Below the pieces are notes generated by a model, which did no database searches, was not told the origin of the DNA, and saw only the letters and a program-made list of their open reading frames with translations. From assembly GCF_000190595.1 (NCBI RefSeq), contig NC_015167.1, positions 2,159,501 to 2,223,500 of the forward strand: a DNA stretch of 64,000 bases, given 5' to 3'. Every line of letters starts with the position of its first letter. The stretch's first letter is position 1. Origin of the DNA: Cellulophaga lytica DSM 7489. Lineage in GTDB: Bacteria; Bacteroidota; Bacteroidia; Flavobacteriales; Flavobacteriaceae. Below are positions 45,673 through 62,786 of this stretch, piece by piece. The translations under genes were made by a program, and so were the position numbers.

Positions 45673-45775
45673 TACAGCATTGTTTGTTTATATAGAGGCT
45701 ATGGATTGCAAATTAATTTGTAACTGTAGCCTCTTATTTTTTCGTTAAAACTATTTTAGAACCAATCTAATTTTA

Positions 45776-45783
45776 TACTTTTG
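45776..45783 (+). promoter_or_regulatory. -7 box of the metK promoter
   Basis: TACTTTTG fits TAnnTTTG. The mRNA would start a few bases downstream, at the front of the SAM-II-like aptamer. No well-spaced -33 element is obvious. Confidence 0.55.
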
Positions 45784-45794
45784 CAATCTAATTT

Positions 45795-45865
45795 AAGAGG
45801 AAGGATTTGACTGATTGCAACCTCGTATACTGATTCTCAGTACTACAAAAAATGCTAAAACAGAT
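45795..45865 (+). ncRNA. SAM-II-like riboswitch upstream of metK
   Basis: The leader holds the SAM-II core in order: P1 arm GAGG (45797-45800), GATTTG (45804-45809), TTGCAA (45815-45820), the second P1 arm CCTC (45821-45824) and the 3' element GCTAAAA (45854-45860). Between them a hairpin GTATACTGATTCTCAGTAC (45825-45843) lengthens the loop, as in the long-loop SAM-II variants I recall from Bacteroidota. The pseudoknot itself was not verified by folding. It lies 84-154 bp upstream of metK, whose product makes the ligand SAM. Confidence 0.75.
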
Positions 45866-45948
45866 TTAGTTAATTTTTTTTGACGCCTTTTCCTGTTTTT
45901 TTGCAATCTAACTTACCATTCCTCTACTAACAATAGAAGCACAATATT

Positions 45949-47205
45949 ATGGCATATTTATTCACATCAGAATCTGTAAGTGAAGGACATCCAGATAAAA
46001 TTGCAGATCAAATTAGTGATGCATTATTAGACAATTTTTTAGCTTTTGATCCAGAAAGTAAAGTAGCTTGTGAAACCCTAGTTACAACTGGGCAAGTAGT
46101 ACTTGCAGGTGAGGTAAAAAGCAATACCTATGTAGACTTGCAAAACATAGCACGTGAGGTAATTAATAACATTGGTTACACAAAAGGAGCTTACCAGTTT
46201 AGTGGAGATTCTTGTGGTGTTATCTCATTAATTCATGAGCAGTCACAAGACATTAACCAAGGTGTAGACCGTGGCTCTAAAGAAGAGCAAGGAGCAGGGG
46301 ACCAAGGTATGATGTTTGGTTACGCTAGCAAAGAAACAGAAAACTATATGCCACTGGCATTAGATATTTCGCATAAAATATTACAAGAACTTGCCGCATT
46401 GCGTAGAGAGGGTAAACAAATCTCTTATTTACGCCCAGATGCTAAGGCGCAAGTAACTATAGAATATTCAGATGATAATGTGCCACAGCGTATAGATACT
46501 ATTGTTGTGTCTACACAGCATGACGATTTTGATGCTAACGATGAAAAAATGTTAGCGCAAATAAAATCAGATATTATCTCTATTTTAATGCCTAAAGTAA
46601 TAGCGCAATTTCCAGAGAAGGTACAAGCATTATTTACAAGCAAAATACAGTACCACATTAACCCAACAGGTAAATTTGTAATTGGTGGTCCACACGGAGA
46701 CACAGGTCTTACAGGACGTAAAATTATAGTAGATACCTACGGTGGTAAAGGTGCCCATGGTGGTGGTGCATTTAGTGGTAAAGATCCAAGTAAAGTAGAC
46801 CGTAGTGCAGCATATGCAGCAAGGCACGCAGCTAAAAATTTAGTAGCAGCAGGTATTGCAGATGAGATTTTGGTACAAGTAAGTTACGCCATTGGTGTGG
46901 TAGAGCCAACTTCTATTTATGTAGACACATACGGTACTGCAAAAGTAAATTTAACAGACGGAGAAATTGCCAAAATAGTAGCGCAAATTTTTGATATGCG
47001 CCCGTTTGCCATAGAAGACCGTTTAAAGCTAAGAAACCCTATTTATTTAGAAACCGCAGCTTATGGTCATATGGGGAAAGAACCAAAAACAATCACAAAA
47101 GTTTTTGAGTCTCCATACAATGGTAAGGTAGAGAAAGAAGTAGAACTTTTTACTTGGGAAAAACTAGATATGGTAAGCGCAGTAAAAACCGCTTTTAACC
47201 TTTAA
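45949..47205 (+). CDS. metK: S-adenosylmethionine synthetase
   Basis: MetK (418 residues) makes SAM from methionine and ATP. Seen: [45 protein letters not shown] and [20 protein letters not shown]. It closes the pathway encoded by the following genes, and its leader carries the SAM-II-like element, so product feedback is expected. A strong terminator follows. Confidence 0.97.
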
Positions 47206-47281: not shown

Positions 47282-47372
47282 ATTTGGGTGTTACCACAAG
47301 GGTCGGGCTTTTTGTTGCAATCTTTTTTAAGAAAAATAAAAAAGGATTTTCACTACAATCCCTAACACAAAT
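47282..47372 (+). repeat. palindromic intergenic repeat, copy A
   Basis: An imperfect palindrome of about 91 bp. The outer stem is GTGTTA (47288-47293) with TAACAC (47363-47368). Inside, CGGGCTTT (47304-47311) and ATCTTTTTT (47320-47328) face AAAAAAGGAT (47338-47347) and CAATCCCTAACAC (47356-47368). The same parts occur in the metH leader (62848-62963). From memory it resembles a dispersed repeat of many Bacteroidota genomes, not verified. It lies between the metK terminator and the metY promoter, so it is probably outside both transcripts. Together with the terminator, promoter and riboswitch it fills the 580-bp gap. Confidence 0.7.
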
Positions 47373-47534: not shown

Positions 47535-47648
47535 TAGTTATCAAGAAAGGCGGAGGGATTAGACCCAATGAAGCCTTAGCAACCCTTTGTTCATACAAAG
47601 AAGGTGCTAAATTCTACCAAGTACATCGGTACTATAGGCAGATAACGA
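47535..47648 (+). ncRNA. SAM-I (S-box) riboswitch upstream of metY
   Basis: The aptamer has all the S-box parts: closing stem GTTATC (47537-47542)/GATAAC (47641-47646), CAAGAAAGGCGGAGGGATT, the kink-turn and pseudoknot region ATGAAGCCTTAGCAACCC, and AAGGTGCTAAATTCTACC. It controls the genes for O-acetylhomoserine sulfhydrylase and probably the downstream fusion. The 137-base leader after it contains a short stem (TCTTGC/GCAAGA, near 47718-47736) and T-rich tracts, but I cannot fix the mode of control. Confidence 0.95.
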
Positions 47649-49140: not shown

Positions 49141-52100
49141 ATGTTGCATCATATCAAACTAAAAAAATATACAACGCTAAGTGGTAGCACACAAGATATA
49201 GACTTGTCATATCAGGTATTTGGAGCAGAATTGCACACCGCGCCAATTGTACTTGTAAATCACGCTTTAACAGGTAACTCTAATGTTTCTGGTGAAGATG
49301 GCTGGTGGTCTACACTAATAGGAGAAGGTAAATGTATAGACACCACAAAATACACGGTATTGTCTTTTAATATTCCTGGTAATGGTTTTGATGGCTTTAT
49401 TATAGAAAACTATAAAGATTTTGTAGCTAAAGATATTGCTCATTTGTTTTTATTAGGATTAAAAGAACTAAATATCAATTCGCTTTTTGCAATAATAGGA
49501 GGTTCTTTAGGAGGTGGTATTGCCTGGGAGATGGCTGCACTAAATCCAAAGTTAACTCAGCATTTAATTCCGGTTGCATCAGATTGGAAATCTACAGACT
49601 GGCTTATTGCAAACTGTCAAATTCAAGAACAGTTTTTGGTAAACTCTAAGCAACCTGTACATGATGCCCGTATGCACGCAATGTTATGCTACCGTACACC
49701 AGAATCTTTTAAGGCTCGTTTTAACCGAAGCACAAATGAAGAACAACAGTTATTTAATGTGGAAAGTTGGCTAACCCACCACGGTAAAAAATTGCAAGAG
49801 CGTTTTCAATTATCTGCATATAAGTTAATGAACCAGTTGTTAAAAACCATAGATATTACTAGAGATGGTAATGAGGCTTTTATTAACCTGCAAAATAGCA
49901 ACACATCTATACATATTGTAGGTGTAGATTCTGATTTGTTTTTTACAGCCAAAGAAAATAAAGATACCTTTAAACAACTGGCACAAGCTAATAGTAATGT
50001 TACCTATGGTGAAATACACTCACTACATGGTCATGATGCGTTTTTAATAGAGTTTGATCAGTTAGAGCAATTGCTAAATGGTATTTTTAATGATCATAAA
50101 AAACGAGAAGAACTTAAGGTAATTAAGTTTGGAGGTAAGTCTTTAGCTAACGGAGAAGGTGTATCTAACGTAGTTACTAAAATAGCTTCTAAAGTTGCTA
50201 ATTCTGAAAATATAGCGGTTGTGGTTTCTGCTCGCGGAGAATCTACAAATGTATTAGAACAATTGTTGGATTTAGCAGCAAGGGGAGAAGAGTATACTCT
50301 AGCTTTTAATGAGTTTAAAGCATATCAGCAAAATAGTTTAGCGTTAAATTTTTCTGAGGTATACACAGAAATTTTGCAAATTTTAGAAGGTGTTGCCTTG
50401 TTGGGTGATTATAGCTTAAAAATTAAAGATCAAGTTTTGGCATACGGAGAGTTGCTTTCTGCACAATATGTTGTAAAAGCACTTGCTAAAGAAGGTGTAA
50501 AAGCTGAGTTTATAGATTCTAGAAAAATAGTAAAAACTGATGCCAATTTTGGAAATGCAAACGTGTTAGAGGAGGTGTCTAAAGCTAAAACACAAAAATT
50601 AATTTCTAGTTTAGCTAGTAATGTTGTACCTGTTATTACAGGTTTTATTGGGTCTACAGAAGATGGTAAAACAACAACTTTAGGCAGAAACGGTAGTAAC
50701 TATTCTGCCTCTTTATTTGCCAACTTTTTAAATGCTGTAGAGTTACAGAGTTATACACACGTAGATGGTATTTTTACCGCTAATCCAGATTATGTTTCTG
50801 ATGCAAAACGTATAGAACAATTAAGCTATTCAGAGGCTAATGAACTGGCAAATTTTGGAGCAACTATTTTACACGCAAAAACCATAATTCCTTTATTAGA
50901 AAAAAATATTCCGTTACGTATTTTAAATACATTTAATGGTGATAATGAGGGAACATTAATTAGCGCAAAAACAACCAAAGAGGGTATAAAATCACTTTCT
51001 GTGATAGAAAATGTTGCTCTTGTAAACTTAGAAGGCCGTGGTTTGTTAGGTAAGGCTGGTATAGATGCACGAATATTTAAATCACTTGGCGATGAAAAAA
51101 TTAGTGTTAGTATTATTTCCCAAGGTTCATCAGAACGTGGTATTGGTTTGGTGGTAGATGCTGTAAGTGCAGATAAGGCAAAACAGGTTTTAGAGCGCGA
51201 GTTTGCATCAGATTTTTATTCTAAAGACATCAATCTAATTACAGTGCAAAAAGATGTTTCTGTAATATCTATTGTTGGTCAGGATTTAAGTACGTTTCAT
51301 AAACCATACAATGCATTAATAAAAAACCAAATTGTACCATTATTGTTTAATAATACGGTGTCTGGTAAAAACGTGAGTTTAGTGGTTAAAAAAGCTAGTT
51401 TGCACAAGGCTTTAAATGTAATGCACGGACAAATATTTGGTGTTGCTAAAAAAGTAAACATAGCTATTTTTGGTCACGGTACTGTTGGTGGTACATTAAT
51501 AGAACAGTTATTAAAATCTGCTAAAGCCATAGAAGAACGTAAAGGAATTAACCTTAATGTTTTTGCCGTTGCTAACTCTAAAAAAGTACTACTAAGTAAA
51601 AAAGGAATTGGAAAAGATTGGCCTACTACGTTAAATGAAAAAGGAAAATCCTATGAGCTTACAGATATTTTTGAGTATGCAGAAAAACATCATTTAGAAA
51701 ATTTAATAGCTATAGATAATACTGCAAATGAGGATTTTGTGGCTAATTATGTTGATTTGGTAGAAAATGGATTTGATCTAGTATCGTCTAACAAAATAGC
51801 AAATACTTTAGGTTTTGATTATTATAAAAACCTTAGAGACATATTAGCTAAAAACCAGAAGCAATATTTGTATGAGACTAATGTTGGTGCAGGTTTACCT
51901 TTAATAGATACTATTAAGTTATTGCACTTGTCGGGTGAAAATATTACTAGAATTAAAGGGGTGTTCTCCGGATCCTTAAGCTATATTTTTAATACGTATT
52001 CTGAAGCAGATGTACCTTTTTCTACAGTTTTAAAAGAGGCTATGGAAAATGGATATACTGAGCCAGACCCGCGTGAAGATTTATGTGGTAATGATGTTGG

Positions 52101-52524
52101 TAGAAAATTATTGATTTTAGCACGTGAGTTAGATTTAAGTAATGAATTTGCAGATATTAATATTCAAAATTTAATTCCGGAAGCATTAAGAGAAGGAAGC
52201 AAAACAGAATTTTTAAGTCAGTCTGATGCTTTAGATACGGCATTTTCTAAAATTAAGGCAGACCAAAAACCAAATCACGTTCTGCGTTATGTTGGTGATT
52301 TGCACGGTAATCTTCAAGAAGAAAAAGGAATTTTAGATGTAAAATTAGTGTCTGTTCCTAAAGAAAGTGCATTAGGACAAGTAAAAGGATCAGATTCTAT
52401 TATCGAAATTTATACCGAGTCTTATGGTGAAAATCCATTAGTAATACAAGGTGCAGGAGCAGGAGCCGCCGTAACCGCAAGAGGTGTTTTTGGAGATATT
52501 TTAAGAATAGCCGAGAAAGGATAG
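49141..52524 (+). CDS. homoserine O-acetyltransferase - aspartate kinase - homoserine dehydrogenase fusion
   Basis: One 1127-residue protein with three enzymes. About residues 1-320: MetX-type alpha/beta hydrolase that acetylates homoserine, with LVNHALTGNSNVSG, nucleophile elbow IIGGSLGGGIAW, acid in GVDSDLFF and His in SLHGHDAFLI. About 325-770: aspartate kinase (VIKFGGKSLANG, TTTLGRNGSNYSASL) followed by ACT-type regulatory regions. About 771-1127: homoserine dehydrogenase (IAIFGHGTVGGTLIEQLL, GAGLPLIDTI, NGYTEPDPREDLCGNDVGRK). It covers aspartate to O-acetylhomoserine except the Asd step. The usual ThrA lacks the acetyltransferase part. No stop or frame change was seen across the joins. 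Confidence 0.93.
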   Translation: MLHHIKLKKYTTLSGSTQDIDLSYQVFGAELHTAPIVLVNHALTGNSNVSGEDGWWSTLIGEGKCIDTTKYTVLSFNIPGNGFDGFIIENYKDFVAKDIAHLFLLGLKELNINSLFAIIGGSLGGGIAWEMAALNPKLTQHLIPVASDWKSTDWLIANCQIQEQFLVNSKQPVHDARMHAMLCYRTPESFKARFNRSTNEEQQLFNVESWLTHHGKKLQERFQLSAYKLMNQLLKTIDITRDGNEAFINLQNSNTSIHIVGVDSDLFFTAKENKDTFKQLAQANSNVTYGEIHSLHGHDAFLIEFDQLEQLLNGIFNDHKKREELKVIKFGGKSLANGEGVSNVVTKIASKVANSENIAVVVSARGESTNVLEQLLDLAARGEEYTLAFNEFKAYQQNSLALNFSEVYTEILQILEGVALLGDYSLKIKDQVLAYGELLSAQYVVKALAKEGVKAEFIDSRKIVKTDANFGNANVLEEVSKAKTQKLISSLASNVVPVITGFIGSTEDGKTTTLGRNGSNYSASLFANFLNAVELQSYTHVDGIFTANPDYVSDAKRIEQLSYSEANELANFGATILHAKTIIPLLEKNIPLRILNTFNGDNEGTLISAKTTKEGIKSLSVIENVALVNLEGRGLLGKAGIDARIFKSLGDEKISVSIISQGSSERGIGLVVDAVSADKAKQVLEREFASDFYSKDINLITVQKDVSVISIVGQDLSTFHKPYNALIKNQIVPLLFNNTVSGKNVSLVVKKASLHKALNVMHGQIFGVAKKVNIAIFGHGTVGGTLIEQLLKSAKAIEERKGINLNVFAVANSKKVLLSKKGIGKDWPTTLNEKGKSYELTDIFEYAEKHHLENLIAIDNTANEDFVANYVDLVENGFDLVSSNKIANTLGFDYYKNLRDILAKNQKQYLYETNVGAGLPLIDTIKLLHLSGENITRIKGVFSGSLSYIFNTYSEADVPFSTVLKEAMENGYTEPDPREDLCGNDVGRKLLILARELDLSNEFADINIQNLIPEALREGSKTEFLSQSDALDTAFSKIKADQKPNHVLRYVGDLHGNLQEEKGILDVKLVSVPKESALGQVKGSDSIIEIYTESYGENPLVIQGAGAGAAVTARGVFGDILRIAEKG

Positions 52525-62669: not shown

Positions 62670-62786
62670 ACGTTATCAAGAAAGGTGGAGGGATTAGACC
62701 CTATGAAACCTTAGCAACCCTTTATTCTTATTTAAAGAAGGTGCTACATTCTACTACGTTGTTACATACAACACGGCAGATAACTC
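62670..62786 (+). ncRNA. SAM-I (S-box) riboswitch upstream of metH
   Basis: Closing stem GTTATC (62672-62677)/GATAAC (62779-62784), CAAGAAAGGTGGAGGGATTA, ATGAAACCTTAGCAACCC and AAGGTGCTACATTCTAC are all present. It is close in sequence to the aptamer upstream of metY. It controls the homocysteine methyltransferase gene; 200 bases separate it from the start codon, most of them the palindromic repeat copy B. Confidence 0.95.

Follow-up and report, generated by a model that had tools for sequence, protein, structure and literature searches.

The leader of metK in Cellulophaga lytica DSM 7489 is probably (at a probability of about 0.7) a SAM-II riboswitch whose expression platform is antisense to its own aptamer. 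Coordinates below are positions in the window, the whole 64,000-nt stretch of DNA that we analysed. From comparison of related leaders and from folding, we conclude that the RNA downstream of the aptamer would pair with it in a mutually exclusive, SAM-free anti-aptamer state. The new element is the expression platform; the riboswitch class itself is already known in Bacteroidetes as an aptamer (PMC2864571, PMC2258182, PMC1273637), and its long-loop group was introduced in PMC2864571. SAM-II is usually explained by Shine-Dalgarno occlusion or by a terminator. Shine-Dalgarno sequences are described as absent from Bacteroidota mRNAs, yet matches to RF01726 at E <= 0.001 occur in 373 of 397 family genomes. 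A conserved anti-aptamer would provide a concrete, testable model of how SAM-II could act without a Shine-Dalgarno sequence in Bacteroidota, and would open a route to studying riboswitch gene control in this phylum generally.

The covariance model RF01726 (SAM-II long loop) places the aptamer at 45791-45868 on the plus strand with 64.5 bits, above the curated gathering score of 44, predicting membership of that family. The gene 3' of it is metK, which provides the methionine/SAM-gene context of RF01726: an ORF at 45949-47205 (plus strand) encoding an S-adenosylmethionine synthetase of 418 aa with three S-AdoMet synthetase Pfam domains. Its AUG lies 88 nt past the conserved 3' strand of the aptamer, so a ribosome-binding site in or beside that strand, as in the direct-occlusion type, is absent here. 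The sole purine run before metK is AGAAG, 9 nt upstream, and the base at -3 is an A. Bacteroidota mRNAs are described as lacking Shine-Dalgarno sequences, and in F. johnsoniae both RNA structure around the start and an A at -3 modulate initiation (PMC6847099). The long loop of the aptamer holds an extra hairpin (45825-45846), which some genus members have and others do not.

The aptamer 5' half, GAGGAAGGATTTGACTGATTGCAA (45797-45820; P1 5' strand, L1 and core), is a target of the predicted pairing. It faces 45901-45924 without gaps over 24 nt and can form 17 Watson-Crick pairs, a register that was matched in 2 of 5000 shuffles. When the 88 nt of downstream leader were shuffled 5000 times, an 8-nt complement to any part of the 24-nt half arose in 64 cases. 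Pseudoknot-free folding of 45797-45951 gave a minimum free energy structure identical to the centroid (-30.7 kcal/mol, z = -3.61; z = -2.81 for a longer stretch). In this structure the P1 5' strand GAGGAAGG (45797-45804) pairs with CC-A-UUCCUC (45916-45924), the core GAUUGCAA pairs with UUGCAAUC, and AAAACAG of the 3' pseudoknot strand (45857-45863) pairs with CUGUUUU (45893-45899). Because the fold uses both strands of the SAM-II pseudoknot, it excludes the SAM-binding form. By duplex energy with the window platform alone, the 3'-strand pairing was not significant (p = 0.13). The whole window leader folded more stably than the leader with a shuffled platform (z = -2.98). Between aptamer and antisense segments, the fold contains a local platform hairpin, GTTAA-T6-TTGAC (45869-45884), which differs among close relatives (e.g., GTTGA/TCAAC and GCTGAT/ATCAGC), a covariation seen by eye only.

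The original prediction had started from an 8-mer, TTGCAATC, found on the plus strand at 45781-45788 and 45901-45908 on either side of the aptamer, each within a longer direct repeat, and from its complement GATTGCAA at 45813-45820 in the core. All of these positions are accurate, and both plus-strand copies read TTGCAATCTAA. The mutually exclusive switch built on them survives in part. Pairing of the downstream copy with the core, excluding the aptamer, agrees with the minimum free energy and centroid fold and with a kept, covarying pairing in relatives; there is no support for the upstream copy acting in the switch or for the 8-mer being conserved letter for letter. Two further blocks, UUCCUC/GAGGAA and CUGUUUU/AAAACAG, had been overlooked. 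Another copy of TTGCAATC, on the minus strand at 45704-45711, forms part of a hairpin with a T-run after it, just past the upstream gene; by eye, this is the terminator of that gene.

The upstream copy is accounted for since it overlaps a -7 promoter box, TACTTTTG (TAnnTTTG; 45776-45783, plus strand), with transcription predicted to start at about 45786-45790; the RNA should begin near 45788, the end of upstream TTGCAATC. The Bacteroidetes -7 consensus TAnnTTTG is placed at -12 to -5 in PMC9723704 and is given also in PMC7366714. Within 45 nt before P1, this motif occurs in 162 of 173 metK leaders against 10.8 of 173 in shuffles, at a distance of 10-17 nt to P1 (5th to 95th percentile), and TTGCAATC occurs in the same 45 nt in 4 of 173. 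Upstream TTGCAATC is thus rejected as a switch element, and its identity as promoter and start region is well supported.

For the comparison with relatives, 244 loci yielded 202 metK leaders with an aptamer, 8 loci without metK in reach and 34 without an aptamer by sequence pattern; removal of near-duplicates reduced the 202 leaders to 173. Part of the loci were 115 of the best-scoring RF01726 places among the matches listed, with some listed places left out. By the same pattern, an aptamer lies no more than 400 nt before metK at 136 of 145 RF01726 loci taken from the family search. Rfam was applied to 26 of these 202 leaders (the doubted ones and a few others) and confirmed SAM-II in all 26; it also found SAM-II in five of the 34 pattern-negative loci (L066, L097, L113, L142 and L161), which enter no count; in L142 and L161 the pattern had not recognised the 3' strand. 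Three of these five, L066, L097 and L113, are weak SAM-II matches (48-52 bits) before metK; the titles of their records name Sphingobacteriaceae, Mucilaginibacter and Sphingobacterium. Two metK leaders, L095 and L100, carry SAM-I/IV aptamers in place of SAM-II.

RF01726 scored above cut-off in 18 of 18 genus genomes and in 358 of 397 family genomes. The original prediction had been staked on conservation of downstream TTGCAATC in relatives that keep the aptamer and, taken literally, such conservation is not found: the exact 8-mer is kept in 7 of 18 genus members and in 10 of the 173 leaders. By sequence comparison, the conserved feature is instead the pairing, in shifting registers. In most of the 11 genus members lacking TTGCAATC, a different stretch pairs with GGAUUUGAC and P1; as a rule it consists of GUCAAGUC or GUCAAAUCC together with a pyrimidine block. 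Duplex energies within the genus were better than shuffles at p <= 0.05 in 12 of 18 members, the other six ranging from 0.060 to 0.250 (the last being L009, which keeps TTGCAATC), and the z score of the whole leader was negative in all 18 (-1.12 to -7.01).

In 82 of the 173 leaders, the RNA downstream of the aptamer contains a run of at least 8 nt complementary to the aptamer 5' half; shuffles, which match composition only, gave 11.6 ± 2.9, and a same-sense control gave 5. The duplexes averaged -17.4 kcal/mol, against -11.8 kcal/mol in shuffles. An early scoring with a mild mismatch penalty had low power (59 of 173 at p <= 0.05); a repeat of the duplex-energy comparison with 200 shuffles gave p <= 0.05 in 107 of 173. 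The leaders are related; among 29 representatives chosen for low mutual similarity, 17 reached this level. The remaining 66 of 173 leaders fail p of 0.05, and 63 of the 173 contain no complementary run longer than 6 nt. The 19 leaders labelled Bacteroidales by record title are weaker, with 8 at p <= 0.05 (L061, L085 and L126 were kept in the other group). Replacing the platform by shuffles weakened the leader fold, with a mean z of -2.70 and values below -1 in 158 of 173. Neither control showed an excess: the aptamer 5' half reached p <= 0.05 in 5 of 173 leaders against the upstream region and in 2 of 173 against the start of the metK coding sequence. The most enriched platform 6-mers were GCAATC, CAAATC, CGTCAA and GTCAAA, three of which exactly complement the 5' half of the consensus aptamer. 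The aptamer 3' strand likewise has downstream complements with runs of at least 6 nt in 77 of 173 leaders, against 27.6 ± 4.6 in shuffles.

Covariation between the two parts, which had been named as a check on the prediction, was found in the form of repeated pair-to-pair double changes on the metK tree. Platforms scored -17.40 with their own aptamers and -15.11 ± 0.16 with permuted aptamers, the best of 2000 permutations reaching -15.69 (a permutation that ignores relatedness). When the alignment was anchored on ATTTG/CAAAT only, two flanking positions covaried. On a FastTree metK tree of 67 leaders, which controls for phylogeny for these leaders at these two positions, we counted 6 and 5 pair-to-pair double changes, exceeding everything obtained in 300 shuffles (mean 1.64, maximum 5, and mean 1.01, maximum 4, respectively). 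Individual leaders illustrate the pattern: L222 has the unusual aptamer GGAATAATTTGGTCTGATTGC opposite GCAATCTGACCAAATTATTCT, and L103 has TTTGTGAA opposite TTCACAAA. The alternative pairing is conserved with compensatory changes, the pattern sought for an anti-aptamer platform. A pairing that is both conserved and covarying in relatives indicates selection, and the predicted anti-aptamer is well supported by this comparison.

We infer from these results how the leader might act in the cell, with SAM shifting the pairing. Without SAM, CUGUUUU would bind AAAACAG of the 3' strand, UUGCAAUC would bind the core GAUUGCAA, and UUCCUC would bind GAGGAA of P1, so that the downstream RNA occupies both strands on which the SAM-II pseudoknot depends. 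One long hairpin would then enclose the 5' end of the RNA and stop 24 nt short of the AUG, with the start region open and metK on. Binding of SAM would steady the aptamer and release the antisense segments, turning metK off by the usual feedback logic of this gene; SAM synthetase should drop at high SAM, and therefore the anti-aptamer state should be the on state.

How the off step might work was approached by taking the fold of the isolated platform as a proxy for the SAM-bound state. In relatives, the median distance from the end of the antisense to the AUG is 22 nt. Mean openness of the start region (-20 to +5) was 0.521 with the platform alone and 0.562 in the whole free leader; it was lower with the platform alone in 113 of 173 leaders and higher by more than 0.1 in 11. 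In the window the values were 0.54 and 0.70, respectively, with the AUG itself equally open (0.48 and 0.45). Shuffling the isolated platforms left the openness of the start region about the same (0.521 for the real ones, 0.514 for shuffles), so these folds lend no support to general sequestration of the start site. A subset of mostly compact leaders does contain a hairpin abutting the AUG, of the TTGCTTT/AAAGCAA type and, in compact leaders, with the antisense segment in its loop: complementary runs of at least 8 nt abutting the AUG occur in 25 of 173 leaders against 4.9 ± 1.8 in shuffles. The 5' strand of this hairpin, TTGCTTT, is also able to pair with the aptamer's AAAGCAG and could therefore be handed over upon SAM binding. 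Over all leaders, a mimic of the aptamer strand abutting the start codon finds weak support: a run of at least 6 nt is present in 24 of 173, compared with 14.9 ± 2.7 in shuffles, and at runs of at least 5 nt there is no excess.

These features allow a wider mechanism to be proposed tentatively, as possible rather than likely. A Bacteroidota-wide, Shine-Dalgarno-independent platform would use two antisense segments to dismantle both pseudoknot strands without SAM; on SAM, one segment would pass to a sequence that abuts the start codon and resembles the aptamer strand (in compact leaders AAAGCAA, similar to AAAGCAG), and translation would be shut off in a group whose ribosomes dispense with Shine-Dalgarno pairing. 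The window's candidate strands for such a hairpin, 45894-45903 and 45931-45941 (plus strand; the latter about 7 nt before the start codon), are weak and did not reach significance (p = 0.73). A variant of the hairpin with its 5' strand before the antisense segment was rejected, at p <= 0.05 in 9 of 147 leaders, about chance; a looser definition gave 22 of 173, with means of -5.50 vs -4.58 kcal/mol. An upstream ORF from an AUG inside the aptamer (AAAAAATGCTAAA) was also rejected, no class being enriched (119 of 147 end before metK vs 110.7 in shuffles; in-frame fusions number 4 vs 10.3). Pairing of the freed platform with early metK coding sequence is weak, with p <= 0.05 in 12 of 173 leaders and p = 0.70 in the window.

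Other explanations of the downstream copy have to be weighed against the anti-aptamer. It might be a chance repeat of a self-complementary hexamer that does nothing there, beside an upstream copy that belongs to the promoter. TTGCAA is indeed its own complement and the window holds 5 copies of TTGCAATC on both strands against 2.75 expected, which makes the bare 8-mer match weak evidence, and the exact 8-mer is rare among the leaders. Coincidence is nevertheless very improbable given how seldom shuffles reproduce the 24-nt register and given a pairing that is conserved and covaries in relatives. Still harder to credit is that the downstream copy forms part of a second promoter, as the upstream copy does of the first: a T-run ending in TTTG precedes both copies, but the downstream TTTG lacks a TA two bases before it, and genus members with other registers have, by eye, no such element.

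Regarding the off step, SAM binding might allow an intrinsic terminator to form, as in classical transcription attenuation. Terminators are reported after many proteobacterial SAM-II aptamers (PMC2258182, PMC1273637), and the window leader has T-runs; on the other hand, we found no terminator-like site in 45700-46000, and none of 60 leaders sampled from the 173 had a hairpin of -5 kcal/mol or lower before a T-rich stretch (2 of 60 at -3, vs 1.0 in shuffles), so that attenuation appears improbable. The lack of a terminator in these searches and of general start sequestration would also fit a reading that retains the anti-aptamer and assigns the off step to Rho or RNase, to which the freed C-rich, G-poor leader would be exposed. 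C minus G per nt averages 0.088 in the platforms (0.114 in the window), compared with 0.000 for 33 other window genes and 0.059 for 32 metK leaders scored aptamer-less by pattern, of which 3 carry a SAM-II and 2 a SAM-I/IV aptamer. Without the antisense segment, however, the platform value falls to 0.058, equal to that 32-leader group; a good share of the platform's bias towards C and away from G comes from the antisense segment, itself complementary to a G-rich strand. The AUG-abutting hairpin in a subset of leaders also speaks against exposure to Rho or RNase, which we regard as conceivable but doubtful.

The anti-aptamer leader shares with known RF01726 SAM-II RNAs the aptamer consensus, a methionine/SAM gene and a promoter directly before P1. 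In the published models, as far as the available excerpts describe them, either a Shine-Dalgarno sequence is masked in the aptamer pseudoknot or a terminator follows, whereas here the distance to the AUG is long, no terminator was found in the stretch searched and the platform would be antisense to both strands. The Sargasso Sea metX direct-occlusion switch and the S. meliloti metA/metZ leaders likewise have a SAM-II aptamer, and there SAM lowers expression; excerpts of PMC10907184 and PMC9373788 present these as Shine-Dalgarno occlusion or terminator systems and do not describe an antisense of the aptamer 5' half. In the general model of antiterminator and antisequestor riboswitches (PMC2258182), the platform similarly pairs with a switching aptamer strand without ligand. 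The window leader differs from that model in that the predicted pairing spans the P1 5' strand, L1/core and 3' strand, its register shifts within one genus, and no Shine-Dalgarno sequence or terminator is recognised. Excerpts of the open-licence literature yielded no description of an anti-aptamer platform in Bacteroidota.

SAM-II aptamers of the locus set also precede other genes. Three matches lie directly 5' of queF of the queuosine pathway (L027, identified by Pfam, and L143 and L164, by likeness), with candidate antisense segments of -10.9, -13.4 and about -16 kcal/mol, respectively; in L027 and L143 the conserved core ACTG reads ATTG or AATTG. Leaders of metY-like genes have candidate segments of -20.1 (L135), -13.4 (L168) and -12.6 kcal/mol (L038), values that, like those for queF, are given without shuffle comparison. 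A SAM-II match before a DUF6580 gene (L162) has no segment of note, at about -6.

Two SAM-I aptamers (RF00162) also occur in the window, at 47535-47648 before a metY-like gene (Cys/Met metabolism Pfam) and at 62670-62786 before a gene that is metH-like by eye. SAM-I and SAM-II are found together in 17 of 18 genus genomes; a 2007 survey (PMC2258182) reported no species with both. A Flavo-1 RNA (RF01705, 59.6 bits) lies on the minus strand at 47297-47370, with a further plus-strand copy of TTGCAATC opposite it at 47315-47322. A single ORF at 49141-52524 combines an alpha/beta-hydrolase portion with an ACT-containing amino acid kinase portion and a homoserine dehydrogenase; following metK and the metY-like gene, it makes this region a methionine gene cluster.
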